From assembly GCA_963921825.1 (NCBI GenBank), contig OY997593.1:58760039-58824038 (forward strand): a stretch of DNA of 64,000 bases, read 5' to 3'. This document shows, one piece after another, positions 27,474-58,901 of the stretch (the first letter of the stretch is position 1; each line of letters begins with the position of its first letter). Under the pieces are notes generated by a model, which saw nothing but the letters and a program-made list of their open reading frames with translations, made no database searches and was not told the origin of the DNA. A program made the translations under genes and the position numbers. Source of the DNA: Erodium maritimum. Its lineage: Eukaryota; Streptophyta; Magnoliopsida; Geraniales; Geraniaceae.

Positions 27474-29954
27474 GGTGTAGTTCCAAACCAAACGACAAAC
27501 AGACGAACCAATACACGAACATACATTTCAAGAAATAGGGGTAAAGGAACAAGTAATTCATTCATCCCTCAAGTAACACAAGTCGGAACACTCTTTCATC
27601 ACAACCAATATTGTTTCATACTTACCGTACACTTACCTGTCACCAACCATCGGTACATCGATCACCTGATTGTACCCCTTTGGTACAATCAGTCATACTC
27701 GATCATCCGTTCAATCGACAATTATAATAACATAAATATTAAATCAACCAAGTATACATTCAACCAATCAGTCATCATGTGAACACACCGAATAGCATTC
27801 AATCATACGAGCTAAACTAGTTTCATTAGACTCTTAAGTTAACCGAGCAATTAGCGACCAAACATGTGAACCTAACACACAACTAATCCGAGAGCTCTTC
27901 ACAGCCTCTCTACCAGTACAATCAAATTCCCAAGTATTGAAAGCACACTTCACTAATTGTCATCGTCCTAAACATGCATACTAGACTCGTCCATTTATTA
28001 GTAATTGAAATCCGATTATTCTAGTTATTCGTGTCCTATAGGCAATTCTAGGACCTTTCCGATTTTATCATCCTGATCATGCATTCTAAGCGGTAAATAC
28101 GTAATTAAGACTTTCCCTACCTTGCGGTCTTCCTACGAACAAATACTCCTATCAACAGCTGTCCGGCTCGCCTTGTCACCTCGGCGAAGTCCCAGCTACG
28201 AATCTGGGTTTACACACAAACGATCCAAAATCAGACAGGGTCCTGACTACCCAGTTCTTTAAATTAACAGGTTTTCATTTCCGTTGATTAAACCGTTTAA
28301 ACCGATAAAGTCCGACTTAGTCTCAGGTGTCGTTTAAATCAGTTTTAAATTTAATTAAACAAAACAGTCCCAAACGGTCCGTGTCCGATCCAGTCCCGGA
28401 GTCATGCCCGAGTCCGGACCCGAAGATCAGAATCAGTCCGGGCCATGGCCCAGACCAGATTCGAACCCAAGGCCCAAATCCTGTCCAGGCCGAGGCCCAG
28501 CTGAGTTCCGAGCCCAAGCCCAAGGACTCTACCTCGTCCGATCTGAGCTGGGAACGGCGATGGCTAGGGCTAGGGTTCCGGCGACTCCGGCGGCGGTGAC
28601 GACAGGTAAGCACAGGGGTTTCTGACGTCGGTGACGGCTCGAGAACTCGAAGGGACGGGTGCAGGGGCTAGAGCCGAGCTCTTCCAGCCAGTTGTGATGG
28701 CCAAAGGGCTCTCCGGCGCGCGAGTTCCAGATTTGGAACTCGAGCGCTCCGGCGACGCTCTCAGGTTCCGTCCGACTTCGGAGTGAGCTTGGAGCTCGAG
28801 GTTTCAAGCGAAGAAGAAGGTGGGGGGGGTGATTCTGGTGAGCGTTAACTCACCGTCGATGAATCCCCACGGATCTGGTACGGTGGTGCTCGGAATCGGC
28901 GGTGGCGGTCGGGAATCGAAGAGGGAGAGGACGGGTGGAGCTCTCTTCTGGGTTTTTGGTACGACGGTAGAAGAAGACGGCGAAGAAGAAGGGGACGGCG
29001 GGTGCGAGGTCGGAGAAGAAGAAAGGACGGTGGCCGGGGAAGGAGAGTGGGAACGGCGGCGGTGGGTTTCTGGGTCGTCGGGAGAGGGAGCCGAGGTCTC
29101 GCCTCGGGAGTGGTGCGCGGAAAATGAGGCTGAAGTGGCGAGGGAGGGGTTTTAAGGGTAGGGTTTGGGGAGACGGGCCTTGGGCCGATCCTGGTGCGCG
29201 TGAGTAACGGGCCTGGTCTGGCTCGGCCCAAAACCGAGTCTGATCAGGCCCAAGCCTGAAACCTCTATTCCTTTTTTTTTTACAACAAACTTGATGCAAA
29301 AACAACCCCTTTAGTAATAGTTCGCACTTTAAAACCCTTTTAAACCAAACCGGGTTTTACATTTACGATCACGATAATAAATGTTTTTTAACAAAAGTTG
29401 CGATAATTTATTAATAATATATGGAAGTCATTACAACAAGTAGGGCCCCAGAATGTCCTTGATCAAAAACTCTTGAGAAATATTGATCGTAGCTACGAAA
29501 GTTTTTGGAGAAGTATGATAACTTAACAAAATTAACAAACTGAAGAGAATCGCTCAAAATGGTGCCTAGACGATACTTGATCCCATAGAGATAACTCTTT
29601 TCGTCATGAGGAGTACAACCGAACCTGAACTCAACAATAGTACCAGGATGATGGGCTTGAGTCAGGGACTCCTCCCTAGGTAGGTCCTTGAAGCCTCGGA
29701 AGTCTAACATTTCTTCTAGCGGAGCTGCTTACCAGCCTTTGTCTGGTCTTCATGAAGTTCCTCTGCAGATTCTCTCTTCTTAAATAAAAAAAAATGTCTA
29801 TTTCATTTTTCATCCATTTCTAGGATGAGTGGTCGAAAGAGGGTCCCTTGTCCCAATCTGTATAAATGGGCTATACTATTTATACAGATATGGGAGAGGA
29901 GTGCTTTCAATCCCTGTTTTTGTATATCTCTTCGTTCCTGGTTCGTTTATTCAT

Positions 29955-30027
29955 AGCGAGTAGAGCCGTTTGGTAGCCTGCAAGGCTAATAACCTTGAGT
30001 TCATGGGTTCAAATATCATCCCTGCAA
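29955..30027 (+). pseudogene. Degraded tRNA-fMet-like copy 1
   Basis: The sequence follows the plastid trnfM body (TAGAGCCGTTTGGTAGCC ... CAAGG ... CCTTG) but the anticodon loop reads CTAATAA instead of CTCATAA. The T-arm and acceptor stem are also damaged. It directly precedes a better-preserved copy. Confidence 0.65.
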
Positions 30028-30101
30028 CGCGGAGTAGAGCGACTTGGTAGCGTGCAAGGCTCATAACCTTGAGGTCACGGGTTCAAATCCCGTCTACGCA
30101 A
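30028..30101 (+). pseudogene. trnfM-CAU: Plastid-type tRNA-fMet(CAU), near-intact copy 2
   Basis: The cloverleaf is readable. The anticodon stem CAAGG/CCTTG encloses CTCATAA (CAU), and the T-arm is ACGGG-TTCAAAT-CCCGT. The unpaired C1-A72 typical of initiator tRNA is present. One acceptor-stem pair (G5 against A68) and one D-stem pair are mismatched, and the context is nuclear repeats, so it is called a pseudogene of plastid origin. Confidence 0.72.
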
Positions 30102-31332
30102 CATTAACATCTTTTGCCAAAAAATATATAGGAAAAATAAAGTTGTATAGTATTCCAATCAAACTCATTCTAAAGATTAGAAATAAACAAAGGATAAGGC
30201 AAGTGGACCTCATAACTATATCTCTATTATGATATTTGATATTAAAGGTCGATCGGGATGAAATGAAATTATAAGAGTGCCTTTTTTATTTCATATTTCT
30301 TTGGACTTCGAATAAGTTTGTCGCTATTTCTCGTTGAATCTCCTTCTTAGCCTAGAAGTTCTACAGAATAAAAAAAATAGATTCTCTCCTCCTTCCATCA
30401 TAGAGAAAGGCTTATTCTAAGTCACGACAGAAGCACCCTTGTCTGTTCAATAATTTTATTTGATTCCAGAATGCAATAGAAATTTATATTACTATCAATA
30501 TCATTATATTTTTATAAATTATAAATAGATAGGATCATAGCCTCATGTACTAAATATTTTGAAAATGACGTGAGGGTCGCTTTTGTTCCGACAATGTAAT
30601 GGAAAAGGAATGGAGAATGAGCGTGAGAAAGAGACTTTCTATTTAAAGTTTTCACTTTTCTATTATTAAATTTAATACAATAGCAATATTCAATAATAAC
30701 AATATTCAATACAATAGGTTTGAGGTTAACGATGAAAAGCCTGGAGGACTTAGTGGTCTTGTTGCAACCGTCACCCAATCCGTGACATAGGACTTCTCAA
30801 GCTTATCTGGCTTGAATTCCAGGAGGAAATCATGAAACCTCCCCAGCACCTCCATATCAATCAAGGACCACATGACCGATTCAGCCGCAGTTGTAGCAGA
30901 ATTTGGGGAGCCGATCATAGGTCAGGATGACCCTAATCAGATCTAGGAACTCTCGAAACCTCATAAACATAGTCCGACGAAGGGGACGGTGGAACTCTAT
31001 CCATAAACGAACTTAAATAGTCCCTCCCCAACATAAGCCACGTTGATCACACAGGACATCCACGTACTCCCCTAGCGAGGCTTTGATGATTCCCCAATAG
31101 CCTTCGTACGAACCGATGGCGAGATACCCCTTTCATGTACCCATAGTTGGATATGATCCAATTTGGGGAGATCCCTAGCCATCGGGTTCACTATCTCTCA
31201 TAGCATCAACGAGTATCCATTGAAGCACCAAGGCTCGTTTATGTGAAGCTAAGACCTAGCCTCTTGAGATTAAAAGGAGGAGTCGTAGGTCTTAGTATCC
31301 AGGTCCTTCACCACCAAGCCGGACGTCGAATG

Positions 31333-34300
31333 TGTAAAGAACGCCTCGTTTTAATGATTTAAAAGAGTAAACTTTTCCCCAATTTGAAACTTCAGGGTGG
31401 GAAATTGCAACGAGTGAAAATTTAAAAAGAAAATATAAAAAAAAGATGAGAGAATTTGGACTGAGATGGAAATTGGGCCAAGCTTGGGCCCAATCAGAAG
31501 CGAGCCCAAGCCCGCACGCAAAGCCGAGCTCAATGACGCGCGAGGTCCAACCCTACTTTAGACTAACCCTAAAACGCGACTTTTCGCATCTCATTTCTGT
31601 GCACGATTACCGAGGCGTCTTCAACCTCACCTCCTCTCTCTCTCGTTCTCTCTCAGCCTCCCCGGAGTTCACGACGCCTCGCCCTCGATCCTTCCTCTGT
31701 TCCTCTCCTTCTCCCTCGCACCAGCGTCACCATCGCCACCTCACCTCACCTTCTTCTTCCCTTCAGAGTTCAACCAAGCCTCACCGTGTGCGAAGCGAGA
31801 CGACGCTCGAGAGTTCATCCTCTGGTTCGTCCTCTACGAGCTCGAATCGAGCTTCCTCTCACCCTTTTCCTTCTTCCCCACCCTCTCTTCGCCTGAAAAC
31901 CCATCGAGACGAGCTCGATTGGGTCGGTTTCAGGTGGTTTCATCGTCGGAGAAGCTAGGGCTCGCCAGATCAGAGACGGGAGCGAGCGTGGGTTCACGCT
32001 CAAGCCACCGCCGCCACGGCTACGGCCTCGCCGTGAACCTGACGCTCGTCTCATCCCTCTTTTCTCCCTCCACGACCTCACCTGACACCGTAGACGACGG
32101 CCGGAGAAACTCTGGCTCGTCGGAGCTAGAACGAGCTCGGACACGAGCCTGGCAGGCCTTGGGCTAAGTTGAGAGTGGGTCGGGCGGCCTTGGGCCAACG
32201 CTCGAGACTTGGTCCAGGCCCAGGTCGAGACCGGGTCCTGGACTCGGGCGTGAACCGGGTCCGGACCGGGTCTGACTCGGGTCTGGGTCGGGTCTAGAGT
32301 CGGGTTCGGGTCGGATTTGGGTCCGGTCGGGTCAGGCTTCTGGACCGGGTCGGATTCGGGGCTGGTTCTCGGATCAGGGTCGGACAGTTTTATTAATTAA
32401 TTAATTTAATTTATTTCACTTTAAAATGGTAATTAAATGACTTTTTGGACAATTCCGAGGACTTTGGACATATCGGGACTGATTGGACTTTTTACCTGTT
32501 AAAAACCCAGACTTGGACTTCACCCAAGAAGACCGGAGTTAGGCCAGGACGTCAGCAGCTAGGAGACACAGCTGTTGTGATCGTCTTGAGGTAGGGAAAG
32601 TTGCGGATACCGCTTTAATTACGGAAAGATACTAGCATGCATGTTTAGGAATTAATAATAAACCGGAAAGGTCCTAGTTGGCATATAGGATGTGATTCAC
32701 TAGAATAGACGCTTTCGATTACTAAATACCGGACGAGTCTTAGTAACATGTAGGATGTGATTCACTAGCTATACTCGCTTTCTTCTCTTGGGAATTGTCG
32801 TGCTGGTAGATGGGCCATGTCGAGCCTTAGGATTGCGTGTTGTGTGCTATAACCGTTGTGTGAGAGTCTAAATAAGATTATACTCGGTGTTGCATGATGT
32901 GACTGTGTGTGGGCAAATGTGCCATGTTTGATAACGTGAACCCTTGGTTGTGATATGACCGGGTGAGTGAGACCGGATGTGTGATGTATTGAGACGTTCC
33001 GGTTGGTATAACGAAACCAATAATGGCTTTGTGCTGGGTGTTATACCATGTTTGTGTGTTCCAAGAGACGGCGTAGCCGGAGTGGTACTTACGCCGAGGG
33101 ATGTTTCCGGTATAGTGTATCGAGGCCAGGGATGGGGTGATCAGTATCCCGATGACTCGTAGTCCGGGACGGTGTACGACCGAAGTATGTGCCGGTCCAG
33201 TATGTATGGTGAGTATTGCCCCGAATATGTGTGATGGGAAGACATCGGAATGAGGGATTTTCGATCGAGGATGTTACCCTCAGTCTTAGTGAGAGGAAGA
33301 TATCAGGACTGATGTTGTGTGGTCCAATACGATATAAGTGGCTTAGTGCAAATGGCTTTGTGCATTCAATGACGTTGGAAACTGTTGTACGTTATCTGTG
33401 TGTGTCTCGTTGTGTGTTTTATACATGTTGGTTGGCTTTGTGCGTATTTCTAAGTATGTTTATGACTTTTTCTAAAGTGATCGGTAACTTGGTGTCGGGA
33501 CCGAGGCTTTGCGTTCTGGTACGACATAATTGGAACGGGCCGTGATAGCCGGGGAGGTTGGAAATGGTTGTACTAGGTCATGGGTGATTCTGTTGTGTGT
33601 GATGTGCATGTTGATTGGCTTTGTGCGTTGTTTTAAGTGTGATTTGAGTCTTGTGAGAGTGTTTGGTGACCTGAGGTGCTGTTATACTTTATTCCTGTGT
33701 TGCCGTGTGAGTACGCACGTGTGATCGGTTGTGAGATAGCCGTGGGCGTTGTTCACTGAGAATTGTTAGGTGGTGAGTATCAAGAGTTAGTTGCGAAAAG
33801 TGGTATGGGTTCGGTTCATTGTGAGTTTGTTTTACAGGTTGTGCCTAAGCATGGTTGTAAAAATCGGGCTAGGCGCCCGCCCAGGCGGCGCCTAGGCCCC
33901 GATTGCATGTAATCGGGCGTTGCTGGGCGTTTTACCGACTCGGAGTCGATTAATCGGATAAGTCGGGCCTAGGCGGCCGACTAACCGAGTCGGGCGGCCG
34001 AGTAGAAGAGCTGATTAGACGGGCCAGGCCACAATTAAGCTGGCCCAACTTCACATCCACAGCCCACTTTGCCTTGTCTGAGACTGAGGTGAACGTACCA
34101 CTATCCTCTCTCTCTTTTATAACCAAGGCATCAATTCACTTCTGTATTTTTTTCCGGTGTGGGACTATTCTTTGCAAATGTTTTATTCCATTTTTTTAAA
34201 TCCACAAATAAAGCAGTCATTTCATATTTTTCACGATTTTATCTTTCTTTGGCTTTATCCATTCCATACATTCAATTCTAAAACTCGGTACATTAATACA

Positions 34301-35078
34301 TAAATTTAAATTTAAAATAATATGAAAAGTAATTGGTTAACTAGTGTTTAAGAGGATAAAAAAATACTATGACTTACAAATTAACAATGAATTAAATAAT
34401 TTTTCAAAGAGGAAAAAGATATCAAAATATTTGAGACGTAGAATTAAAATGTAAATTTGGCTATTTATAATATAATTGTAATTGTTAATTATTTTGTAAT
34501 CTTATACAATAATATATATATATATATATTACAAAAATATGTTATTTTAAATTTTTGATTATATATGTTTATTAATAATTAAAATTAATTAAAATAATAA
34601 AATCCGCCTAGCGCCTAGGGGTCCTCAACGCCCGACTAGCGCCTAGCGCCATTTACAACCATGTGCCTAAGTGAAAGTCAAGCGTTGTCTTGGAGTAATT
34701 ATTTAATTTGACTTTTACTTGTTATGCTTACTAGCATTCCCTAATTGGACGGTTACCCGTGGTGGTGAGCGCTTGCTCATAACCTTAACTACTTTTCCTA
34801 CTGAGCGAAAGCTCACCCCCCTTACTTTGTTGTGTTTCAGGTGTTGAGTGGGATCTGTACTAGCAGGATTCTCGGAGCTTGGGAGCTGGCGAGGGTTTAG
34901 CTAGTGTCTAGCGATGTACTTTATCTGTTACTGTTTGACTTGTTTACTATTACGTTTATTTGAACTTTTGGAGCTTTAAATTGCATTTGAGACCCATTTA
35001 TTTATCTTTATTACTTTGTTATTATTTTATCTTAAGTCGCGTCTCGAATCCGGTCAAAACCGGATTTGGGGCGTGACA
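31333..35078 (+). mobile_element. Solo LTR, gypsy family, 3.7 kb with nested element
   Basis: It starts TGTAAAGAACGCCTCG and ends GGATTTGGGGCGTGACA. The flanks GAATG (31328-31332) and GAACG (35079-35083) are a 5-bp TSD with one C/T difference. Sequence order resembles the solo LTR at 45920-48607 read in reverse: a GC-rich 5' block, GGGTC-type repeats (32200-32380), TTAATTAATT, and a GGATGTGATTCACTAG motif. There is no internal retroelement region. It interrupts ORF1-only LINE copy (i). Confidence 0.87.
33851..34662. mobile_element. Mutator-type inverted-repeat element, 812 bp, 10-bp TSD
   Basis: The ends are ATGGTTGTAAA and its inverted match TTTACAACCAT. The flanks GTGCCTAAGC (33841-33850) and GTGCCTAAGT (34663-34672) form a 9-10-bp duplication. 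Subterminal parts are GC-rich runs of GCGCCTAGGC-type words in both orientations, with an AT-rich middle. It is nested in the solo LTR and carries no gene. Confidence 0.82.
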
Positions 35079-36666
35079 GAACGTCCCCATGCTCGCGTAA
35101 TGATCTTGAGCATGAATTCTTTTCAGGGGGCTTTGGCGCCAACAGCCTACCCTACATGCTGAATTTTTGGCGAGCAAGGATTGTTTGGTCCGTCAAAGTG
35201 TAGGGCACCAAGACCTCCATCTCGTCTTCATCGGTGATGGAGAAAGTTGAGAGGCCGTTCTAGAGGGTCACCATCGATGACGACATGTCCCGAGGAGGCG
35301 GTGAGGTAGAGGAGCCATCGACCCTCGACGTCTTCGAGACCAAGGAATCAGGTCCTTCCTTGGTCGGTGGTGATACAAAGACATGCGGTCGCGCGTGGGA
35401 AGAAACCCTAGCAGGGCGTCCTCACTTGGGTTGACCGGTACAGACTCCGACGATACATTCCCTGGGGAAAGGACCACCAGAGCACAACCCTCCATGGACG
35501 ATTGGCTAGTTGGGGGCAGTTGCATTTACGGTTATGTAATCGGTAACACAGAAAGAGAGGTTTTATGGGTTCTCTTCTTCCTAGCCTTCACCGGGTGGAT
35601 GAAATCAGATGAGGGTCATGGGGGCATGGTAATGGGATTCGGGGTGACAACCATCATAGAGTAAGGAGGGGACGTGACGATCTCCATTGGTGGAGAGATC
35701 GACAACACGGGGGGTCGAGGTGTTGTTGATCTCTCCCCTAAAAAATATTTCTATTCGAAACCCATAAATCGACATCTTAACTAATATGAATCTCTCTATT
35801 TCACAATTAACAAAACCCTAGAAATCAAGCAACCTATATGAAGAAAAATGAAACCCAGAAATTTGCAGAAGAAAAACATAACCCAAAATCTAATAAATCC
35901 CCGTAGTACATCCAAACTTGCATAAATCTCTAAAACCAACAGAAATCAACCAAATGCAGAGTTGTTCAAACTAAACAAAGACCCCAAATATTAGAAGCTC
36001 GCCGAAGAACACGTGGAGAAGAAGAAGAGAGGGCGGCAATGATTGCATCGACGAAGAAGAGATGAAGTTCCTCTCTTGACTGGATATGTAGATCTGTTGT
36101 GACATGGTTGAACTCGTAGTGGAGATAGATTCGTAACTACTAACAACCCTTTTCCCGGTACCATGGAGGTCGACGGAGAGGAACGGTAAAGTTGTGGAGG
36201 TCGGCGCCGACGAGGAAAGGTGGAGCCATGTACAAAGGTGTAGGAGTCGCATGTGGGAGAGGAGGCCAAAGAGAAGAAGCAAGTGGGGAAGAAGGAGGTG
36301 AGAGAGTGGGCAGCGTGGTTGAAATGAATGGGAAGAGTTAGATTTAGGTTAAGTCAGATTTAAGTAATGGTTAGTTTAGGTATTTTCAGAAAATATACCA
36401 GCATGTGCTTGGCGCAAGATAATTTCCGTCTGATTTTGTAGGGAAAACGAGTAAAGTGAAAAAAAATGAAATTAAGAGGGATAAATGTCAAAAAAATAGT
36501 TAAGGACTTGACATGAAAAAATGCGATAGTATGATTGGTTATGTGTTGTTTTCCCTATATTAAAACGTGATAACTGAAAAATCTATTTTCAATTCCATTT
36601 GATTTCGAATTTTGAAAATCAAAATCCTTATGGTTCAATTAAAACTCTTTTAATTAAAATCCAAAG

Positions 36667-38689
36667 TTTTTTTTGAGTAATTGTAATTTCATTCCATTAA
36701 AAGGGTCAGTACATGTTCGAAATCCCAGACGGGTCAAACACACAAACCCTGTAACTACTATTGCGTCCAGAACGCATTGGATGAGCCACAAAAGCTAAAT
36801 AAAACGAGAACCAAACTAAGTATAGCTGAACAATTAAGATCATAAAACTAGTAGAGTACTAGGGAGCATTGCTCAAGGTAGGGCCTACAAACCGCTAGGT
36901 CACCCAAGGGAGACACTTTTTATCCGCTATAAAACCGAGCATATGACCACCAGTACCGGGTTGAGGATAGGGTGACCTCGGGGGGAGTACCCAACTTCCC
37001 CCGAGCCTCGGTGTGTGACTCATGGCTTCTAGCGGGGTTGTTTCCCAGCCCTCGCCTGATCTTCACGAGGCTCCCGATGATCCTCCCGATGACAGCCCAC
37101 TCCCAGTTCCCCAAGGTGCACTCCCCCTCCCTCCCGAGGTACAGTCAGCGGAGGGGTTGATTCGCATAGCAGTGGAGCAAAGCCCGGGGGCACCCTAGCA
37201 GTCTGCGCCCAAGTCGTGGCATATCCCTTATCCTTCCGGTTCTTGGGATAGTGCTTTAGTGACTTGTCAAAAGTATGGATGCCCGGCATCTCCCTGTCGC
37301 AGGCCGTAGGGGTGCCCTATACACCCACAATTCCCACAGAAACCGGTAGCTTGGCATATGTAAGAGAGTAGGTGATCGGGTCCTTGAACTCAGGGAACCT
37401 GAGGCGCATATTCTGACACAGAGGTCGGTCAAGGGAATGCCAGTAGCGGACCTTCACTGTCCCCCCCCCCCCCCCCCCCCCAGCACTGGCCAATTCATCG
37501 CAAGGAACGGCCACCGTCCCACCCAACGCCTCCCCAATCCTAGTACATGTAGTCTTAGTGCTAACTATCTAGGGGATACCATGGGCATGTACCCACAGTT
37601 GCATCTTGTCCATGGCTGGAAGGTCCTGGACGAACGGATCCATCTCCGCCAGCATCAAGGTTTGCCGTCAAAACACCATGGTTTATTCAGCCTAACCCAA
37701 TCTCAATCCTCCTTCCTGGAAAAATAAAACCCAAAGACACCCAGGCAGACGTCCTTTATGACCAAACCAATAGCCTATTTGCCTCATGAATTAGTGAGGA
37801 TACGGAGGAGGGTATCCTTACGAGGTTGAACATCCGTGAGGAGGCGACCCACCATCCCATATTGTTGGCGAGAAAGCGTAGCCGGATCAAGAACCCCATT
37901 CACTACCGTAACTTCCAAGGGTTCCTCAAACCCTAGGGAGCAACCCGAGAAACTGTGTTGAAGGGCCTGAAGTGGGCTATCATGATCCAGTATTGGAGGC
38001 GTGGGGTGATGGCGGGAAGGTTGATGGAGGTCCTCGGTCGGCGCTGTGGGCTGCTCCATTTGGATAGGTGGGATGTGATTAGCAATAGGTAAAGAGAGAG
38101 CCTTACCAGTCGTCGACCCTAACCCGTCCGCCATCTGCAGCCGATGAGTCTCCAAAACCCTAGCTGAAAGCTAGGGGGATGGTAAAATAGCCGCCTGTTT
38201 CGGAGGACGGCCCCGGTGCGTATGTGGTGGCTCCGACCTCGGAGAGTGGTCCCCCGGTGCATAGGGTACCAATGGAAACATCAAAGGAGGGACCGAGGGC
38301 GGGGGCGGCAGTGAGTCTTTGGGCGGAACCGACGTCGTCGCCAAAACCTTCTTCTTCCGAGGCGCTCGCGTAGGCCGCACAACGTCGTGCGATGGGAAAG
38401 GGGGAGGGACGGCCCCCGATCCCGCACCCACGCCAGCGGCTAATGGGGCAAGATCCCCCGGCTTCACGCCCACGCCAGCGGCTGCTGGGACAAGGCCCAA
38501 GACGAGGACCTTCGGAGAAACAGGTCGTGAGGGTGGGGTGGACATGGGATGGGACAAAGAGGGAGACACCGGTGGAGAGGCGGAGCGCGCGGCTTGATCG
38601 GTGAAAAACACAGAGATACGGGAGCACATGGTTAGGGTTTAGAGTTCTCGACAGAAGCGAGGAGAAATTTTTTAACTAGTTATCTAACC
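36667..38689 (-). mobile_element. ORF1-only LINE copy (ii), 2.0 kb, complete with TSD
   Basis: The poly(A) end is the T-run at 36667-36674, and a direct repeat AATCCAAAG flanks both ends (36658-36666 and 38690-38698). ORF1 starts at an ATG at 38629. It has a Pro/Ser-rich N-terminus, an in-frame TAG at 38171-38173, then a DUF4283-like start (YGMVGRLLTDVQPRKDTLLRIL, about 37785-37855), a Gly run encoded by the C/G homopolymer, and a degraded zinc-knuckle region near 37320-37430. Several further stops follow. The 3' UTR comes straight after ORF1: there is no endonuclease or reverse transcriptase and no room for one. It is therefore non-autonomous by structure. Confidence 0.78.
37461..37481. repeat. 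Run of 21 C residues (Gly codons on minus strand)
   Basis: A homopolymer lies inside the LINE ORF1 of copy (ii). On the minus strand it reads as a poly-Gly stretch just before TVKVRYWHSLDRPL. Length is likely variable and a frameshift hazard. Confidence 0.88.
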
Positions 38690-38698
38690 AATCCAAAG

Positions 38699-43708: not shown

Positions 43709-43723
43709 AATGACAATATTAAG
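43709..43723 (+). repeat. LINE target-site duplication, copy 1 of 3
   Basis: AATGACAATATTAAG lies immediately before the LINE body. Close copies occur at 50034-50048 (AATGACAGTATTAAG) and 52325-52339 (AATGTCAGTCTTAAG), after the poly(A) ends of the two consecutive LINE insertions. Confidence 0.8.
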
Positions 43724-43734
43724 CGACAAATTAG

Positions 43735-44172: not shown

Positions 44173-44534
44173 ACCGTTTTTCGGGATAATATCAACCAAA
44201 TTCGTTCTCTTTAGAGGCAACTGGCTGAACTGAACGGTCGAATAGACAGGCAAGGCATCAAACAGGAAGAGTTCTTGCGTCAATGGGCGAAACAGCATTG
44301 GTTGGGAGAAGGCGATAGAAATACGAAGTTCTTTCAGCGATCGGCCACGAAAAAGCAGGCAAGGAACAAACTCAAATCTTTTATTAACGATGAAGGGGTG
44401 GAAATGCAATGGCATACGGGGATGAGGGAATGATCCACAACTACTTCGCCAATATTTTCACTGCTGGGTACATTGATGATTACGGCCTCCCCATGACCGT
44501 TCCTCATATGATATCCCCTTCTTAGAATCTACAG

Positions 44535-45924: not shown

Positions 45925-48607
45925 CCCCCCAAATCCGGTATTGACCGGACCCGAGACGCGACTTAGTGAAATTAAATAAAAATAGTTTAAAAGTAAATAT
46001 TATCTGATAAAAGGAAATAATGTAAACCAACAAAATGTTCAAACCCTGAGTCATACGCTCAGTCATTTACAGAATTCGAAAATAACAGTACGTCTCTAAA
46101 GTTTATAAGCAAAATAAACTCGGGCCTCCGCTAGCTCCCAAGCTCTGCGTAACCCTCTACTCCAAATCATAGCTAATACCTGTAGAAAAACAAGCTAAGG
46201 GGTGAGCTTGACGCTCAGTAGGAAAAAGCCACGAAATCCACCTCATTACAGATTTACAAAGAACGCCTTTCCAAAGTCTAAAGTTTAATAAAAGGGTTGA
46301 TAAAATGATGCGACACTTGAACCTTTTAAAGACAATCACCGTTTACCATGACGCTCAATAGCATAACAATCTCCAACTTCGAGCTCAACACTAAAAGCCA
46401 CACCGAGGCAACACCGAAGGAACATCAAGGAAAACACTCATAGCCACAAACACACAACAACACTCATTCAAATCCAATGCATTATCAACACAACCAATTC
46501 ACACACATGCACGGTTTCGGGAGCAACCCGCTCGGCCCGGCGAAGCCACACGCAACTTTCCCCATCACAGAGTCGGGAGAGGCGGTCGACCTCATCGCGG
46601 AACACACGCCCAGCCTCTTCGCGGTACAACCTCATCGCGGAACACAGCGTTTTACCGATACACGGAAGGCAGGGAAATCGCCTCTTCGCGGAACAACCTC
46701 ATCGCGGTACAACACAGCGTTTTACCGAGTGCTAGTCGGAAGGTAGGGAAACCACCTCTTCGTGGGACACAACGTTTTACCAACTCAAGGTCGGAAGGTA
46801 GGGAAACCACCTTTCTCATGTAACCAAAGCACTCACAATCACAATCACACTCACAATCATACTCACACAACGATCACGCACTTACAATCACTTACCGGTA
46901 CCCCACTCAACGTGGTAACCCCGCCGGCTTAACCAGTATTCAATCCCCGAAGCTTACAGTTCAACATATCACATAACTAGGGAATAACCACTCAAGTCAC
47001 TAATATGCAACACTAGTTCACTCTACTCGTTTTCATGGTTGTTATTTATTAACTGTCAAACATCACAGAGCACACAAGCAGATACACTCAGCAAACAACC
47101 CTACATGCCCGACATGGCCCGATTCTACCAGCACGGCGATTCCCAAGACTAAAGTCGTAAATGTTCACAATTTATACGTCTACGCTAGTTATTCACATCC
47201 TACAGGCACACTAGTTCTTTATCCGGTTATTACGTTTTCCTATATGCATTCTAGTACGTCCGTAATAAAGTAGGGTTTCGAGGTATTTCCCTACCTCTCA
47301 GTCTCTATCTGGATCGCCTAGTTGTTGACGTCCGAGCCTACTCCGGTCTTCTCCACACTCGGGGTAAAAGCCTGGTTTTAACAAAAAGAGACGGTAATCA
47401 GTCCCGTTCCAGTCCGTAACGGTCCTCTAATTATCAATTAAGTCCTTTAATTTAACCTTCAAGTCCTTGAATTTAACTGATTTAAGTCCAATTAATTAAT
47501 TAATTAATTTAATTAAAAATGTCCCACCCGACCCGACCCGAGGCCAACCCAAACCCGGCCCGAATCCGGAAACCGAATCCGAGTCCAGAACCGAAACGAC
47601 CCGAGCCCGACCCGGATCCAGACCCGAGTCCAGACCCAAGTCCAGGATCAAGACCCGAGTCCAATCCAAGTTCAGGCCTAGCTCAGACTTGAGTCCAGGC
47701 CCAGTCTACCCTGGCCCGAGCCCAAGGCCCATGCCTCGCCTTGGCCCAAGCCCAAAGCTTAGTCATGGCCTGAGTTGGGAACGGAGGTGAGACAGCTAGG
47801 GTTCCGGCGAAGCTAAGTACGGCGGCAGAGGCGAAGCCGGGGGTTTTCTCGACGGTGGCGACGGAGTCAGGGCTCGGAGTGATGAGGGATTGGGGGTTGG
47901 GGCGAGTTCAGAGCCCCTCCATCCAGATCTGACGCCGTGAGATGCTCGCCGGCGTGAGAGCACAGATCTGGAGCTCGAGAACTCTGGTTGTGTCACTCCG
48001 GCCGAGCTCGGCCCAAATCGAGCTCGCACGCTCGCGATTCTCAGGGAAAGGCTGACGGGGAAGGCGAAACAGACCGGGAAGAAGGCTCACCGTCACTGGT
48101 ACCTTCTATTGCAGGCGCGGCGAGGTGCGAAACGAGGACGGTGGCGCTGATTCGTTTCGACTCGGGGAAGAAGAAGGGAAATGAGGGAGGTTTCTGGCAC
48201 GGGGGCGAGGCGAGGGTGGAGGAAGAAGAAGGAGAAGGTGAAGGGAGGTCGGAGCTGAGAACGGCGGCGAGTCTGGTTCCCGAGAGAGAGAAAGGCGAGA
48301 GATGGATCGAGAGGAAGGAGAAGGGTCGCCTCGTGAAACGTGCGCACAAATAAGGGAGACGAAGAGACGATGCTAGGGTTAGTACAGGCTGGGTTGGGCC
48401 TCACTTGTTGGGCCTGGTCCTCCTCTGAACGGGCCTGGCAGCATGGGCCTGGCTCAACTGACTGTGCTGGTCCTGCTCGGCCCAATGTCCTCCTTCTCTT
48501 TTTTTTTTTTTTGAATTCGATCCAATTTTCCCCCCGTTCTCCAACCCACGATGTTCCAAATTAATACTTTTAAATTATTAATTCACTTAACCGAGGCGGT
48601 CTTTACA
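45920..48607 (-). mobile_element. Solo LTR, gypsy family, 2.7 kb, inserted in LINE ORF2
   Basis: It starts TGTGACCCCCCAAATCC and ends GGTCTTTACA on the + strand. A perfect 5-bp TSD CATTT flanks it (45915-45919 and 48608-48612). Removing the LTR and one TSD joins ..LVARIL to RARYYPTG.. of the LINE, which confirms the boundaries. Inside are repeats of CTCATCGCGG/CTCTTCGCGG-type words (46580-46810) and a GACCCGA-rich tract (47520-47660). No internal retroelement sequence is present. Confidence 0.9.
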
Positions 48608-48613
48608 CATTTT

Positions 48614-50005
48614 CAGGGCTCGGTACTATCCGACGGGTGACTTTTTATCCGCATATGGGGGTACCAACCCCAATCAGATATGGTCGGGACTCCGGGCTAC
48701 TCATGCTTTACTTAGGTAGGGATTGATTCGTACTATCGGGGACAGTTTCTCGACCATGGTTGAAGGTTCTCCCTGGCTCTTAGGGAATGACCTCATCATC
48801 CCACCTCATACATGTATTATCCCGAACATGAGGGTATCAGAGTTGGCTTGGAGCCAAGGTCAGTCCTAGGACATTCAGAAGCTTCAACACAACTTTCCTC
48901 CTACCATAGTGGAGGAAATCCTGCAGGTCCCACCCTGCCTTCCACATCACTCAAACAAATGGTCTTGGAAGTACAATATTTGGGGAGTGTATTCGGTTAA
49001 GGATGGGTATAGGGTCCTATCCCGGGAGAACGGTCGTTGGCATGTCTCGGTGGGCACAACGGTCTGGACGGCCATATGGGACTTAGATGTCTAACCACGT
49101 ATAAAGGTTTTTCTCTCGCGATCTTTATCTGGTACTCTCCAAGTAGCGGTCAATTTACGAACCAAATTCGTCCTGATTCCGAGCATATGCCCGATCTGCT
49201 AGGGTGATTAGGAGACTACTGACCACCTCCTCCTTCATTGTCTGTTTGCCCAGGCAGTCTGGGCTTTATCAGGTACACATGTTCTTATTTCCCCTTCGTG
49301 TACCTTACATGATTGGATGTCTCTGGTACTGCACCTGCCTGATATGCAGATTAGACTGATTCTGATTCTCTGGGAGATCTGGAAAGCTTGAAACAAGAGG
49401 GTATGGGACAACAGTTTTTCCACTCCTTAGGGTGTCTTAGCCACAGTACTTAGTAACCAGTGCAGCTGGTCAGAGGCCCAGAGTGGCCAAACCAAACCTC
49501 CGGCCGCCCCCTGTAGGCAGACGAGATGGAACCCACCGCCCCCGACCTGGTTGACAATCAATGTGGATGGTGCAACCTTTTCCTATTCATGTCAATTTGG
49601 CTGGGGATGGTTATGTAGAATGGAGACGGGAGTGATCCTGGAAGGAAGGAGTGGTACAGGGCTCGGCATCTTAGGACCCGAATTTTTTGAAGCGATAACG
49701 ATCTGGCAGGCTCTGCAAAGGGTTCAAGCGTCAGACCTTCCCAAAGTCATTATTCGTAGCGATGCCCAATATCTGGTTCATTTGATTCAGGGGACTCATC
49801 AGGTGTTCTCCCCTCTATGCCGTTTGGTTGACGACTGTTGGACTCTTCTTGTTGTCCTCGAGGATTTCAAACTCTAGTATATCTCTAGGTCAGCGAACGG
49901 AGCAGCCTACTGGCTAGCTCGGGAAGCCCGTTCTATGCCTGTCCTTTCGTGGTCCAGGTTCATTATCCCGGATGCACTCAAATGTATTCTGCAACATTTC
50001 AAGTA
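48614..50005 (+). pseudogene. LINE ORF2 zf-RVT and RNase H-like C-terminus
   Basis: After the LTR the frame continues RARYYPTGDFL, then WKYNIWGVYSVKDGYRVL and a TTDHLLLHCLFAQAVW block (zf-RVT type), and INVDGATF...GWGWLCRMETG with QVFSPLCRLVDDCWTLL of a plant RNase H-like domain. Several stops interrupt it. The 3' UTR and A-run follow at about 50005-50035. Confidence 0.8.
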
Positions 50006-50499
50006 ATACATCTATATTCTACCGTTTAAAAAAAATGACAGTATTAAGAATATGTTTTCTCTCTCTCAATTTTAGAGGTCCCCTCATTGTCCTAGCCGCA
50101 CGACAGGTATGGTACTCTGCTCCACCCCCATCGTCGACATGTTCTCTATCGTGGCTCCGCCTGTGGCTGGCGTCGATGCTCCTATTGGTGATGCTCCCCT
50201 TGCGTTACCTTGCCCTCTACAACCCTCTCTTGGTGCTGGAGATTAGAGCCGACGTCGGCGAAAGCCCAAATCGCTTCTGGCTCCCTCTTCATCTCCGCCT
50301 GTGTTGCCGACGCCGACTCTCCCTCCTCTAGGAGCGATCTCGGATGGGGTCTCCTTCTCATTAGGATCAGCCTCTCCAGATCCGATCGCAAACCGAGACG
50401 AGGGAGTCCTTCATGTCGCCCCTCGATGGCTTCTTCTCCATGAAACAGCCTACTCACTCTCCCCCCTCCGAACCCTACTTTGCTTCCCCCTACCCCCCA

Positions 50500-50516
50500 C
50501 CCCCCCCCCCCCCCCC
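50500..50516. repeat. Run of 17 C residues
   Basis: A C homopolymer lies inside the Pro-coding N-terminal part of the LINE ORF1 of copy (iii). It is at a different ORF1 position from the run at 37461-37481. Confidence 0.88.
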
Positions 50517-50977
50517 ACACAATAGCCATGACCTCGCTCTAACTCCTCATTTACAGGGCAGTGCGGGTCCTAGGGATAGTCGGTTCCCCTCCAACCCTCT
50601 CTAGGGTTCCTTCTCCCTCACGTCACCACATTGGCTTGGTTTCCCACACTAAGGATACATGGGCTAAGGTAGTGACTATTATAGTTGGTGCCTCGAGCTC
50701 TAGCCCTAGTAGGGTATCGTCGTTGCAGCGAGACCCGGCGAAGGGGAAGACACCCATGGAGGAGCTTCCTAGGACGACGGTGATGGTTTTGGGGTTAGGG
50801 CGCTGCCTTCCCGATCAGGCTAGGATCCCGATCATCCTGGCGTGTTTCACTACTCCGGAAGGGTTGACGCGAGATCGGTCGAGTTATTTGGATGCGAAGG
50901 AATTTGATCCGGCCAACTTGGTCTAGGATCTTCAAGCTTCCCTGGCAGGTCTTCAGGACGGGTTATCATCCTGCTCT

Positions 50978-51688
50978 TTGGAAGAGGTCGAAATGGTGGT
51001 TCCGTCCTCCCGGACGACATCGAAGACCATTGCACGCCAACAATTGGGGATGTTGGGGAGGTTGTGGTCCCCAAAGACTCCCCACAAGGATACACTCTTA
51101 CGTATCATTACCAACGCGTGGGGGAAGTCTATTGAGGGTCTCTTGGTAAAAGACCTAGGCTCGGGGCTGTTTGGATTCTACTTCCGGTCCCCCGAGGCTC
51201 GATCGTGTGTCCGAGGCAACGAGCCTTGGTGCTTTGATGAACGGAACCTATTTTTTGGTGAGTTGGATATGTGTGCTTGGGAAATGCCAATTCTCGACCG
51301 AGTACAATTGTGTGCACAAACAAGGGGTCAACCTCAACTGGTACGGGCGCAGGAAACAGGTACTTCCATCGGGGACGCGCTGGGAGTGTGTGTGGATGTC
51401 TCATTTGACCAATGGGGCATGTGTTGCGGTGGCACTGTCAAAGTCCGGTTCTGGCACCTCCTTGAGAGGCCACTACGTAGGGGACTGGTCCTTTGGTTTA
51501 AGGAGTTACCTGAGCCGATCCATGTGGAACTCACTTACTCAAAGCTTCCGAGCTTCTTCTACAATTGTGGCCGGCTCGGCCATGTCTTGCAGGAATGTAA
51601 GTGGGCGGTCAAAGGCTTCCCGAGTTTTGACTCCTCCTTGCTGGAGTATCAAAGGGAGAAGCAGGTCAAAGCCTACGCAACGGATTGA
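50978..51688 (+). pseudogene. LINE ORF1 protein: DUF4283 plus degenerate zinc knuckle (236 aa)
   Basis: This is the longest intact ORF1 stretch in the window. Residues about 24-100 show the DUF4283 pattern (QQLGMLGRLWSP, then VKDLGSGLFGFYF, GNEPWCFDERNLFF). The knuckle reads SFFYNCGRLGHVLQEC, with Phe where the first Cys of a CCHC box should be. Known DUF4283/zf-CCHC_4 proteins are the nucleic-acid-binding ORF1 of plant L1 LINEs. The N-terminal ORF1 part lies upstream in other frames (50561-50926), so this copy is broken. Confidence 0.78.
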
Positions 51689-52407
51689 GGGGAAAGTTTT
51701 TGTTCGTCTGCTCTACCGGGATTTGTCCCGAAAGGCCCCTCACTCTGAATAAGCCTCATCGGACCTCCATGCCTTCTAGTCTAGGGCCTTAGGGTCCTAC
51801 CAGAGTTTTCCATGCTCAGTCCCTAGTTATCTCGGCACTGGTGTCCCCTCCACCACCCTCTAGACAGATGAGTGGGGAGCTTGTGAGGGCTCGGGAGCAA
51901 AGGATGTCGGGCTTCCTGGTCTTGCTGGAGTTGGAGAGAGTACTAGAGCGCTCAAGAGCTCAGCAGTTGGACCTCCTTGGGAGGATTAGGTCAGGGCGGT
52001 AAAGCAGCCATGCTAGAAGGAATGAGAGGTCAAATGAGTATCGAGGACTGGCCCAAGGAAGGGTCCCAAGACGATTCTTTGCCTCCCACCATCACCATTA
52101 TTGTTGAGGTCCCTCGGGATCCCCGGTACCCCCTTCCCCCTCCTCGTATTCTATCTTTTCCCATGTGTCATCAAAATACCGCTTATGATGGTTATGGTAC
52201 TACAAGGATCATAGAACCATTTTTCACCCAATCTGTCATTTTCATTTTGGTTGGGGATTCTGTTCCTCAACACACAGTAATGTAATTGTCTTTTGATTAA
52301 TAATATTGCAACTTTCGCTAAAAAAATGTCAGTCTTAAGAGCATCCACATAAAAAAACTAAACTTTAGGTTTTATTTTTTCTCAGTGATTTGTCACCATT
52401 GATTGTT

Positions 52408-52897: not shown

Positions 52898-52906
52898 TTG
52901 ATTGTT

Positions 52907-54135: not shown

Positions 54136-56567
54136 ATATATTTTTTTTTACTAAAAGAGGCAATTTTTTATTAAATAAAGAGTCAATACAAGTAAAGAGT
54201 CTCCGAAGGGCTCAACACACATAACTCTAAGACAAAGTAACCGTCAGAAACGGTATTGAACTCGCCATATAGGCATGAAGGATAGGTGGGGGTTGGGAAA
54301 TGAAACTAGAAGTCATGTTCAAGGTAGTGCCTAAACGCTGCATATGGGGGCAAAGCAACCAAACTTGAACTTGTCAGTTTTAAGAGGCGTGGCTTCCACC
54401 AGGGACACCTCTTGAAGCCAGTCCCTAGAACTAGAGGGGTCTATCGATCCTCCTGGCGAGGCTACTTACTCGCCCTTGCCTGATCATCTCGGGATTCTTC
54501 AACTGACCCCCTCTTCATGCCACTTGCACCAGCCGTGGAGGAACCTGAAACTTCGGTTTTCTTGCCACTAGAGAGCTGGCCAAATACCAAGTTTTTTCAA
54601 CCGGGATCAACTACCCCGTCTAGAGTGCATACCCGAGGTCCTGTACTGTTAAGTCTAGTGTTCGGGGACATAATTTGGGCACTTCCTTAAGACGGGGCGC
54701 CTGTAGGTACATTTGTAATAACCACTCCCGGTCAACGCCAGTCAAACCTGCGAAAAACAGGAAAATTTAAAAAATTTAAGACTGATAGTTAAGTGAACCT
54801 AAAATGACCCCGAGTGTCATACCGGACTTAAGTTGACCCCTTTATTGACCCAAGTGAGTTCCAAGGGACTCAGGGCAACTTTCTGATCAATTTGGGAAAT
54901 GTTGACTTTTCGCTGGAAAAGTCAACCGAGCGACGTTTTGGTCTATTCGAGGACCGTTTTGGATCCAAAAATCTTAGCCGTCGTCGCAGCGGTCTTAGTT
55001 GAGCCATTTCCTTGTAGCCCGTGAAGTTTCGTAATTTCTTGGAAAATGGGCCCGTTCGGGGCTCGAGACGGCCGAATTTCGCGAATCTGACAGAAAAATA
55101 TCTATGAAGATATTTATTAAAAGGTGGGACCCACTTACCACTTACCACTTGCCACTTGTCACACAAGTGGTGGTGTTAGGTATTTTTGAACAAAATAAAA
55201 AGGAAATGAAGAGGGAGGAGCTAGTCTTGTGCTGAGAGAGAGAGAAAGCTGTTTGGTTCTTTGGTCTTGGCGGTGAAGCAGCGAAAGAGATCTCTCCATA
55301 AGTGCTTCTGGTGTTATATTCACCAATTGATCTTTTGATCAAGAGGTAGATGACGGCTACGTAGGGAGAGGCTTTCTTGGGCTTTTAATGGTAATTCCTT
55401 TCTTTTTAAATCAATAAATATTCTTGATTGTTGAACTAAGCTGCTGAAATCAAGGAGGACAAAGGGATGGTTGATCCTTTTTGATGACTGCGTGTTTGAG
55501 TTAAAATGGTGGCAAATTAATAGTCCTTAAGAGTGGCATTAAGAACATATTGATGACAAGCATTAATGGCTCTGGGTATGATACAGTAGCACGAAAATAT
55601 AAGGGAAGAGCCTTTTATTTTTGGAAACTAAGAAGATCTAGTTCGTCGATGGATATTCTGTAAAAACAAGTTCAAGAAAAACAGATAACTTGATTTATGT
55701 AATTTCTATCTGTTTATGGGAGATCTCGTTTCTTAGAGTTAGTGTCAACCGGAAAACAAGGACCACGTTTAGTTTTATATTGTTCTCTTACGATTATTTA
55801 ATGTATTGAGAATTGGGGAATTAGGGTTTGGATTTAAATTGGAAAAGTTGTAATTATCGGGTTTAGAAACTTTAAACGTTAATTAATTGACTCGGAAGTC
55901 GGAATTCGATTCCGTCGAGTGCCTAGGAACCCTTGCATTATTCTAAGACCGTAGAAACGAAAACAGGAATTTTCGGAGCCCCGGAAGGGCATTTCCAAAC
56001 CCCGGGCAGATTCGCCATGTCCGGCGAATCGGGCCTTTACGGGTCCTTTATCGACAATGTCGAATAATTGGGAAGTTTGGGAGTGATCGACATTGTCGGG
56101 GTTACGTTTGGGCGTTAAGTATATTAAATTTCGGTTTATTCGTACTAGTGTAAAAGTGCCTTAAATTTGTATTCTTTTAGATCGTGCTGCGGACCGAGGC
56201 AAAGGGAAGCTCGGCGAGTGACTGGAATCACATCGAGGTTTAGTGGAGCGCTTTTGGAGTTGTATACGAGGTAGGGAAAAGTAGCCGGATCTCGGCCCTG
56301 ACTAGGGAAAGTTAACAGTAGAACTGCATGTGACACCGGGGTGTCGTGGGTTGAGTAGGTTTATTTAATTATTAGAAAAGCATGATACGGGATTGTAGCG
56401 TTTACGAGAAAAGCATGTGACACTTAGTAGTGTCGTAGGATCAGAGAACTTAGCGATGATTGAATTACTGGAGGCATATGACCATGCCCGGAGGTTGTTC
56501 GTGAACTAGTGATCTTAGGACTGTTGGAGGCATTGATTATGTCGGAGGTTGTTGTGCTTATTTATTG

Positions 56568-56795
56568 TTGAGTTTGGGTAGCCTTGAGAGCCCGTGTTAT
56601 TTATTGTCGAGTTTGGGTGGCCTTGAGAGCCCGTGTTATTTATTGCCGAGTTGGGTGGGCTTGAGAGCCCGTGTTATTTATTGTCGAGTTTGGGTGGCCT
56701 TGAGAGCCCGTGTTATTTATTGTCGATTTGGGTGGCCTTGAGAGCCCGTGTTATTTATTGTTGAGTTTGGGTGGCCTTGAGAGCCCGTACTTTAC
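56568..56795. repeat. 39-bp minisatellite, about 6 copies
   Basis: The unit contains GGTGGCCTTGAGAGCCCGTG followed by TTATTTATTGTCGAGTTTG and recurs six times with few changes. It is the first of three adjacent arrays in the solo LTR. Confidence 0.92.
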
Positions 56796-56849
56796 TGTTG
56801 GTCTTTAGCTGGCTTACAAGTTAGAGTCTCGGTAAGTGGCAAGCGTGTT

Positions 56850-57185
56850 TTAGGGCTGGTGTCTTGGGAGGCCGTGAGTGCCTGTGGGGCTGTTGAGTCC
56901 GTGTCCTACTGTTGGTGTGTCTTGGGAGGCCGTGAGTGCCTGTGGGGCTGTTGAGTCCGTGTCCTACTGTTGGTGTGTTTTGGGAGGTCGTGAGTGCCTG
57001 TGGGGTTGTTGAGTCCGTGTCCTACTGTTGGTGTATCTTGGGAAGCCGTGAGTGCCTGTGGGGCCGTTGAGTCCGTGTTTTACTGTTGGTGCGTCTTGGG
57101 AGGCCGTGAGTGCCTGTGGGGTTGTTGAGTCCGAGTTTTACTGTCGGTGTCTTGGTGGCCATGAGTGCCTGTGAGTGTTGAACCT
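56850..57185. repeat. 58-bp minisatellite, about 6 copies
   Basis: The unit contains TCTTGGGAGGCCGTGAGTGC then CTGTGGGGCTGTTGAGTCCG. It recurs six times, the last copy incomplete. Confidence 0.92.
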
Positions 57186-57239
57186 GTGTTGTTACTGGTT
57201 GATGAATTTGCTTGTGATTGTGATTGTGATTGCGGATCC

Positions 57240-57410
57240 CGGTAGGTTGCAAGCATTCTTTGGCTGGCCTGACCAAGTTTGAGTATCAACGGGTTGCAAG
57301 CATTCTTTGGCTGGCCTGACATGGTTGAGTAACACAGGTTGCAAGCATTCTTTGGCTGGCCTGGTCCGAGTTTGAGTATCACAGGTTGTAAGCATTCTTT
57401 GGCTAGCCTG
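57240..57410. repeat. About 47-bp minisatellite, 4 copies
   Basis: The unit contains GGTTGCAAGCATTCTTTGGC then TGGCCTGA and recurs four times with short length differences. It is the third array in the same LTR. Confidence 0.9.
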
Positions 57411-58901
57411 ATCCGTGTTCGTGTGAGTGGGAGAGGTTACTGAGCAGCTGGTATGCGATCCTTTGTGATCTTGTTTGGTGTGCGATCCTTTGTGATCTGT
57501 TTGGTGTTGTGTACCTGTCGTTTGAGTCCTTGGGAGAGGTCGTCAATTGTTGTGTCGGGTCTACTTACGCTGTTGAGTGTTGAGTCGTTCGAGGAAGGTC
57601 ACCGTGGGTGTTTGTCAGTCGGAGTACTTGAGTTGGGGACGGTGATCCCCGGAGTTGAGTTTGTTGTGGGTGTTATAGGCTTTGTCTGCTAATTATGCCG
57701 TAGTCAGTCTGTTATCCGCGATGGTTAGCGAACGCTCACCCCTAGTTGCTTTTCCTACAGGTACCGTTCGTAGGCTGGACTAGGTGAGCTTCTGAAGCTT
57801 GAAGAGCTTGAAGCGGGTTTCTGGGTGTTTTGAGTCTAGCGACGGATACCATGTTTTTGGTCCACTTGTTGGGACGTGTTTTAAGTTGTAATTATTATTT
57901 TTTTGAACTAAACTGGTATTTTAAAGTGATTAAATGAAAATAGGTTTCCAGTGTTTGTATGTTTTTAAAACGTTCGCGTCCCGAGTTCGGTTTACTGAAA
58001 TTGGGGCGTGACAACATTGTTCGAGGATAAGGTCCTGAAACCCGATGGGACGTTTAGAGAGGCCTTCTCCTCCCAATCAGTCGCGTATTGTGTAACCTAT
58101 TGATCTTTCTGATACTCCAACATGGAAGCATCAAAGCGCGGGATACCACACAACTCCAAATCACACTCCCGAACCCCATGGCCGATCCTCCCACAATTGA
58201 AGCAGAACGAGGGGAGTTTCGTGTAAGTGAGCGTGACTTGAACAGGGTCCGAAAACTCCCTGAATCGCAGCAGCAAATGACAATGGAGAGGACGTTCCAC
58301 GAGGTGCCAGAACCGCACCCTCACCGCCCCTCCCCAACATAGTCCCCATTGATCGCATGGGACCTCCACACAAATCCATAATGTCGTGCTAGTTGTCTCC
58401 CCAGTTTCCTGTGTCTGGACCAGTGGAGGGAGGCCATGGTCATAAAACCCAAAGCTACAGACGATCCAGAGCGGGGAGCTCTTTGACCATTGGATCCATA
58501 TCTCTAAGCTAAAGAGGCCGAACATCATAGCACTAGGGCTCGTGAACCCGAACCCATGCCTACGCCTCCCCTAATTCGAAATAAAAGCCAAAGACCCCCG
58601 GGCCTGTCCTTGATGACCAAATGCTCGCGGACCATCCCTAGGCATTGGTGCTGATACACAACAGAATTTCCTTCCGAAGAGATCACGGATCCCACATCTT
58701 TCCCACCATGTCGAACTACTGGCGCGCCATCACCAACGAGTCTATTGGTGAATGCGAAACTAGGAGCTATACCTCCTCCTTGAGAAAGAGAGAACAAGTC
58801 AACAATAGGAGAGGCAGACCTGTAAGTTGTCCATGGTGGACGCGAGTAGACTCGATGGCACTGGTTTTGGGTCTCGAGGTAGGGTAAGAGATTAACCAAC
58901 T

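Follow-up and report, generated by a model that had tools for sequence, protein, structure and literature searches.

Predicted ORF1-only half-LINEs coexisting with an ORF2-only LINE family in the genome of Erodium maritimum

We analyzed a stretch of 64,000 nucleotides from the genome of Erodium maritimum (763 Mb in 40 contigs), which spans positions 58,760,039 to 58,824,038 of contig OY997593.1 (GenBank assembly GCA_963921825.1) and is called the window below. It contains four copies (i to iv) of short elements that carry the first open reading frame (ORF1) of a long interspersed nuclear element (LINE) and lack the second, ORF2; we refer to them as half-LINEs. Copy ii (36667..38690, minus strand) consists of the 5' start TCTCCTCGCTTCTGTCGAGA, which lies shortly inside the target-site duplication (TSD), a decayed ORF1 with a DUF4283-like core, a 3' untranslated region (3'UTR), and an A-tail. 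Its TSD, AATCCAAAGTT at 36658 and 38690, is perfect over 11 bases, as expected from an earlier sequence-only reading of the window that had described this copy as complete at 2.0 kb. Copy iii (50050..52320, plus strand) has the 5' start CTCTCTCAATTTTAGAGG, a broken ORF1 with DUF4283 and zinc-knuckle regions, a 3'UTR of ~300 bases, and the tail TTGATTAATAATATTGCAACTTTCGCT-A(n), and is flanked at 50029 and 52320 by the 14-base TSD AAAAAAATG[A/T]CAGT with one mismatch within the scored part. Copies ii and iii, at 2.0 and 2.3 kb, are therefore both complete short elements with a TSD, a broken ORF1, and no ORF2. The other two copies, on the minus strand, are each split by an insert. The 3' part of copy i (29382..31338) holds the DUF4283-to-knuckle region of ORF1 (~30751-31329), the 3'UTR, and the tail, and its 5' part (35083..~36330) has an uncertain 5' limit. 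Copy iv comprises a 3' part with the ORF1 C-terminus, 3'UTR, and tail (54138..54713) and a 5' part with the DUF4283 and knuckle region (58014..~58901, 5' end uncertain). No ORF2 was found between ORF1 and the tail in any of the four window copies.

The matches of the decayed copies ii and iii to DUF4283 and the zinc knuckle remained under the Pfam cut-offs, and copy ii matched DUF4283 only, whereas less decayed relatives exceeded the DUF4283 cut-off. Two of these (L053 and L055) scored above the cut-offs of both PF14111 and PF00098; two others (L037 and L059) passed PF14111 only, their frames stopping before or within a damaged knuckle. 

Translated comparison of the four window copies gave ~34-58% identity over most pieces of at least 20 residues. 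Half-type ORF1s are 43-52% identical at the amino-acid level between families and ~65% identical among iii-like loci. Judged by their sequences, the four copies are members of four families of one deep ORF1 clade and not of one family with a common 3' end, as had been proposed. With copy ii as a blastn query, 35-59 bases around the ORF1 end were common to copy i and iii-type loci and also to some iv-type loci. Past this stretch the 3'UTR differs between families, leaving only the terminal motif (about T-TAAT-A-AATT-CA-TTTCG-TCAAAA) in common. The last ORF1 codons of half-LINEs, GKQPRQEE, resemble ARVAKQPRQ, the ORF1 end of LINEs with both frames (two-ORF LINEs), where ORF2 begins in overlap; from this correspondence the junction of half-LINEs is the end of ORF1 itself.

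Many copies were found elsewhere in the genome. Forty places were scored with copy ii as a DNA query, many of the alignments starting near query base 20 and, apart from one small gap, reaching the end of the query. Among the 30 loci read (29 non-self loci and the window copy), 23 were near full length at 2.0-2.1 kb (one 1.7 and one 1.9 kb) and 7 were not; the family usually starts with TCTCCTCGCTTCTGTCGAGA and ends with GGAATGAAATTACAGTTACTC-A(n), with some variants. Copy iii as a query likewise gave 40 scored places, nine of which besides the window copy span base 13 or earlier to at least base 2190 of 2,277, and eight further copies were read (L045-L052). ORF1 protein searches, in which the best of 18,303 and 13,372 candidates were scored, returned at least 125 matches at 60-100% identity for the iii-type query and at least 150 at 49-100% for copy iv. 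Ten divergent loci were read at ~3 kb, and 20 further places from each search were read as 801-base stretches behind ORF1. The iii-type 3' part past the ORF1 stop was matched in 20/20 further places of the iii search, although in L069, L074, and L077 only in pieces. In the iv search, 17/20 places had a match to the 3' part (ORF1 end included) of one of the four window copies, and a LINE-like tail before the A-run was seen by eye in 15/20.

Half-LINEs were found on every one of contigs C1-C9. Allowing at most one mismatch, a degenerate pattern for the half-type motif NEPWCFDG matched the genome 2,357 times and its reversed control 0 times; an equally long pattern for MEPWWFNK, a motif of only some of the two-ORF LINEs, gave 61 matches (control 0). 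Of 73 element flanks (82,362 bp), 10 also contained half-LINE pieces, a density at which tens of thousands of pieces in the genome are plausible, keeping in mind that LINE flanks are not a random sample.

We searched for ORF2 in 88 half-type loci (L009-L038 and L045-L102, L009 being the window's own copy), chosen by ORF1 or DNA similarity. The tblastn queries were the first 129-236 ORF2 residues of six two-ORF LINEs and a second set from an ORF2-only LINE family described below. The first set matched 8/8 two-ORF loci and 4/4 ORF2-only loci as positive controls, and the second set likewise reached 4/4 in its positive control. With both query sets, ORF2 was found inside the element at 0/88 half-type loci. 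Single matches outside the element were obtained in L021 with the two-ORF-derived queries and in L034, on the opposite strand, with the ORF2-only-derived queries. The proposal of ORF1-bearing short elements without ORF2 before the tail is borne out by these data, for a larger group than had been stated, and ORF2 regularly placed between such an ORF1 and its 3'UTR was not seen among the loci sampled. The accompanying suggestion of a HAL1-like amplification of ORF1 without ORF2 gains support from the same result.

Within a family, most of the copies read have the same start, junction, and end. A TSD score of at least 10 was reached by 20 of the 37 copies parsed, compared with 28 of 1,332 cross-locus controls; by group, these were 11/23 ii copies, 4/8 iii copies, and 5/6 others (8/9 iii rows and 6/10 divergent rows were used, and L044 was dropped for want of a tail). 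Copies within a family thus combine one common junction with distinct TSDs, the pattern by which the sequence-only reading had suggested that a family could be recognized. It contradicts the idea that each short copy is an accident produced by an independent, dead deletion of ORF2, with no mobile ORF1-only lineage behind it. The copies read are all decayed to some extent and the four in the window differ strongly from one another, as that idea would have it; the constancy of start, junction, and end across many copies with different TSDs, together with the selection between subfamilies described next, makes it highly implausible.

Selection on ORF1 was estimated by a query-anchored codon comparison, in which saturated pairs drop out. 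The median dN/dS was 0.14 among the ten divergent half-LINE loci (37/45 pairs usable; uncorrected pN/pS 0.30), 0.15 between these loci and family iii (73/90 pairs; pN/pS 0.30), and 0.26 within family ii (136/136 pairs; pN/pS 0.34). For comparison, the ORF1s of eight two-ORF LINEs gave 0.09 (10/28 pairs; pN/pS 0.28). ORF1 differences among the ten divergent loci were distributed by position modulo 3 as 0.258, 0.149, and 0.469, whereas those in pure 3'UTR (11 rows) were nearly flat at 0.242, 0.276, and 0.267. These values indicate that ORF1 is under purifying selection, with dN/dS of ~0.15, between the better-comparable half-LINE subfamilies, suggesting selection for the ORF1 protein in elements that no longer had ORF2. 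In an ORF1 tree of 36 rows, the 28 half-LINE rows split from the 8 two-ORF rows with a support of 100/100; 7/17 ii rows were used, inner branches were partly unresolved, and long branches were flagged.

Selection on ORF1 could also belong to an unseen two-ORF LINE with a half-type ORF1, half-LINEs being its repeated splicing or internal-deletion products. LINE transcripts can be spliced to shorter retrotransposed forms, described as SpIREs (spliced integrated retrotransposed elements; PMC5860796), and two-ORF LINEs do exist in this genome. However, identity between the half type and the eight two-ORF ORF1s is no more than 24-27%, and ORF2 was found inside none of the 88 sampled elements. Moreover, the iii-type subfamilies sampled have homologous 3'UTRs, which at ~300 bases exceed the ~20-90 bases of the four two-ORF LINEs in which stop and tail were clearly read. 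We regard such an origin as unlikely. Another conceivable origin is a host gene, domesticated from a LINE ORF1, that LINEs copied into processed pseudogenes. These would show similar ORF1-like open frames, A-tails, and TSDs, and selection could then act on the host gene. Several diverged families with many copies each, family-specific 5' starts, a LINE-like 3' end, and a motif count above 2,300, where a host gene would be expected to give one or few source sequences, render this explanation more improbable still.

Taken together, half-LINEs are best interpreted as 2.0- to 2.5-kb non-LTR (long terminal repeat) retrotransposons of the plant L1-type lineage that long ago lost ORF2 or never carried it, a reading to which we assign a probability of roughly 0.88. 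They have retained ORF1 up to its last codons; their own 3'UTR, which measures ~300-370 bases in copies iii and ii, comes next, and the 3' end is of the LINE type. From the half-LINE RNA, an RNA-binding ORF1 protein would be made, and this protein would package the RNA that encodes it; the ORF2 protein of another LINE would then nick the target and copy this RNA by target-primed reverse transcription. Such borrowing of ORF2 in trans is inferred. Its likeliest suppliers would be the ORF2-only LINE family, which is abundant, or else the two-ORF LINEs; a similar 3' end is present in both.

Several observations weigh against this interpretation. None of the copies read is fully intact. No TSD was convincing for window copies i and iv, whose scores of 8 and 7 are at chance level, and 17/37 of the parsed copies lack a TSD at the threshold. 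Three of the 20 iv-type places match no window 3' part and several others match over ~30 bases only, while 40 of the 88 loci searched for ORF2 are known only as the 801-base stretches. The internal dN/dS of family iii is 0.66 (36 pairs), which we attribute to its copies being mostly dead descendants of a few sources. Pairs from distant families are mostly saturated (149/170 for the ten divergent loci versus family ii), and their uncorrected pN/pS of 0.40-0.54 is little informative; furthermore, the compared pairs are non-independent and come from a single genome. Finally, an attempt to name the ORF2 partner from the element ends failed: the 5' ends gave no discrimination, and at the 3' end half-LINEs are similar to both kinds of LINE.

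The second LINE type lies in the window directly 5' of copy iii. It is a 5'-truncated member of the ORF2-only family (43735..50035, plus strand) that ends in a tail and comprises an endonuclease-like part (43735-44172, recognized by eye with no Pfam match), a reverse transcriptase (44526-45924), an insert (~46.0-49.1 kb), and RNase H (49431-49877); RVT_1 and RVT_3 were above the Pfam cut-offs. The reverse transcriptase frame at 44526-45341 was found at 142 places (counting the window) at 75% identity or more, and some of these have open frames 900-1,000 residues long. We read the 5' parts of 13 places (5 and 8, within L103-L126). The ORF2 start, M-P-x-L-L-A-W-N-C-R-G-L-G-T-D-H-N or close to it, was seen in 4/5 and 5/8 of them, L111 being apparently truncated. 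Upstream there is only an untranslated stretch beginning with CTCTCCAC or a close variant, 517 bases long in the two cases with both limits. ORF1 queries of both types found no match at E 0.3 or better in 12 such 5' regions, whereas two-ORF ORF1 ends matched 8/8 control loci. In L103, a half-LINE on the opposite strand lies ~1 kb before the ORF2-only start.

TSD scores of at least 10 were obtained for 7/7 parsed ORF2-only pairs, compared with 2/42 cross pairs (one of these scoring 17); the pair of L105 is weak, being AT-rich and having a second candidate match. These are 7 of 11 pairs, after L104 and L124 (no tail), L111 and L113 (no start parsed), and L116 (partner without tail) were dropped. 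Six full-length copies measure 4,500-4,661 bases, and the start motif had 387 genomic matches (control 4). The ORF2 N-terminus is 25-32% identical to that of two-ORF LINEs over at least 100 residues. By these sequence features, an abundant LINE family with ORF2 and without ORF1 coexists with the ORF1-only elements.

Two further neighboring arrangements were recorded: in L121 a second ORF2-only LINE seems to begin ~20 bases past the tail of another, and in L108 a ii-like half-LINE begins, by eye, ~95 bases past a LINE tail.

Ends of the three element kinds were compared using the last 30 bases before the A-run of 30 recognizable half-LINE, 10 ORF2-only, and 5 two-ORF tails. Mean 3' scores were 19.4 for half-LINEs versus ORF2-only LINEs (12.1 for shuffled sequences), 21.7 for half-LINEs versus two-ORF LINEs (shuffled 11.6), and 20.2 for ORF2-only versus two-ORF LINEs (shuffles ~12). 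The 5' ends differ between kinds, half-LINEs scoring 12.3 with ORF2-only LINEs (shuffled 7.9) and 11.1 with two-ORF LINEs (shuffled 6.5). All three kinds can fold a small hairpin at the 5' start (L002-L008, L045-L061, and L103-L120), its sequence differing by kind, but the starts were picked with hairpin-containing patterns, which biases the test. One of five iii-like rows does not fold at all, and given the selection bias in favor of folding the comparison shows little. Homology of the half-LINE 3'UTR with ORF2-only elements was discarded, as the matches in L103 and L112 proved to be half-LINE pieces outside the ORF2 element. Co-insertion of copy iii with the adjacent ORF2 LINE was also rejected: half-LINE pieces were present in 2/18 flanks of ORF2-only LINEs, 7/44 of half-LINEs, and 1/11 of two-ORF LINEs. 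Their density next to ORF2-only LINEs is no higher than in the other flanks, and the adjacency of copy iii is therefore not special.

The coexistence of both kinds suggests that two halves of one LINE machine may have become separate elements. In a stronger form, an ancestral two-ORF plant LINE would have split into stable ORF1-only (2.0-2.5 kb) and ORF2-only (4.5-4.7 kb) elements that complement each other in trans; we consider this scenario tentative and rather doubtful. Both kinds are abundant and have complete copies, each without exactly what the other has. On the other hand, two-ORF LINEs are present and could serve half-LINEs, an ORF2-only LINE may need no ORF1, the ends do not pair the two, and half-LINEs do not concentrate beside ORF2-only LINEs. 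Mutual dependence of the two kinds is thus possible but unproven. If the split did occur, the halves would be comparable to the genome segments of a multipartite virus, and selection would maintain each of them. Judging from motif counts, the pair would then be more numerous than at least one group of two-ORF LINEs in this genome.

The insert in copy i (31343..35082, no strand assigned) and that in copy iv (54714..58013, no strand assigned) are both lone-LTR-like, end in GGGGCGTGACA, and have limits set by eye; the former is flanked by the short repeat AGAACG and the latter by the 5-bp repeat ACATT on both sides. Together with the stretches at ~46.0-49.1 kb and 59767-59826, they apparently have a common GGGGCGTGACA / TGTCACGCCCC end, and they interrupt half-LINE copies i and iv and probably the ORF2 LINE as well. 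Three tandem-repeat runs with units of ~38, 58, and 46 bases occupy 56535-57418 of the insert in copy iv. A plastid-like stretch, recognized by eye, lies inside copy i at 29760-30740, with a tRNA-Met (CAT) gene at 30028-30102.

In a literature search with little coverage of subscription journals, no published ORF1-only or ORF2-only plant LINE family was found. With half-LINEs, ORF1-only LINEs would be known from a plant as well as from mammals (HAL1) and Drosophila telomeres (HeT-A), and the plant elements would differ in the kind of their ORF1 and have a deep history. Selection on the ORF1 protein in an element without ORF2 bears on the question of whether this protein works on the RNA that encodes it or is shared, and the coexisting ORF2-only LINE makes a direct trans-complementation test between LINE halves possible. 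In addition, half-LINEs may account for some of the DUF4283 'genes' in plant annotations.

Among plant LINEs, Celine of poplar is described as a two-ORF L1 LINE with a DUF4283 ORF1, an A-tail, and TSDs averaging 15 bp (PMC11288735), and the two-ORF loci L001-L008 are of similar architecture. The relatives of the window half-LINEs show the order typical of plant L1-type ORF1s, DUF4283 and then a CCHC zinc knuckle; in two-ORF plant L1 LINEs, however, ORF2 with endonuclease and reverse transcriptase overlaps the ORF1 end, whereas half-LINEs lack it. Short interspersed nuclear elements (SINEs) encode no protein, and half-LINEs differ from them in bringing their own selected ORF1. In SINE/LINE tail sharing, a non-autonomous element is reported to use LINE machinery via a common 3' end, including plant L1 3' ends (PMC3747384). 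At Drosophila telomeres, HeT-A, which has no pol, is proposed to use the Pol of TART, and the Gag of TART depends on that of HeT-A for reaching telomeres, which has been described as a potential symbiosis; TART has its own Gag, and both elements are telomeric (PMC4467039). Both element kinds likewise coexist in E. maritimum, but here the candidate ORF2 supplier lacks any ORF1 and half-LINEs occur on all of C1-C9. HAL1 of mammals is described as a non-autonomous LINE derivative that encodes only the ORF1 protein and arose several times from L1 (PMC5753468). Half-LINEs likewise have ORF1 and no ORF2, are amplified in families with TSDs, A-tails, and fixed ends, and show selection on ORF1 (apart from the high value within family iii). 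In contrast to the repeated L1 offshoots that constitute HAL1, the sampled half-LINE ORF1s fall on one side of the tree against the two-ORF ORF1s, as one deep clade of several families, and coexist with an ORF2-only LINE; they match the plant-type PF14111 and zinc knuckles rather than the mammalian L1-type ORF1 protein of the named HAL1 family. Half-LINEs are thus HAL1-like by their plan of parts and not HAL1 by descent.

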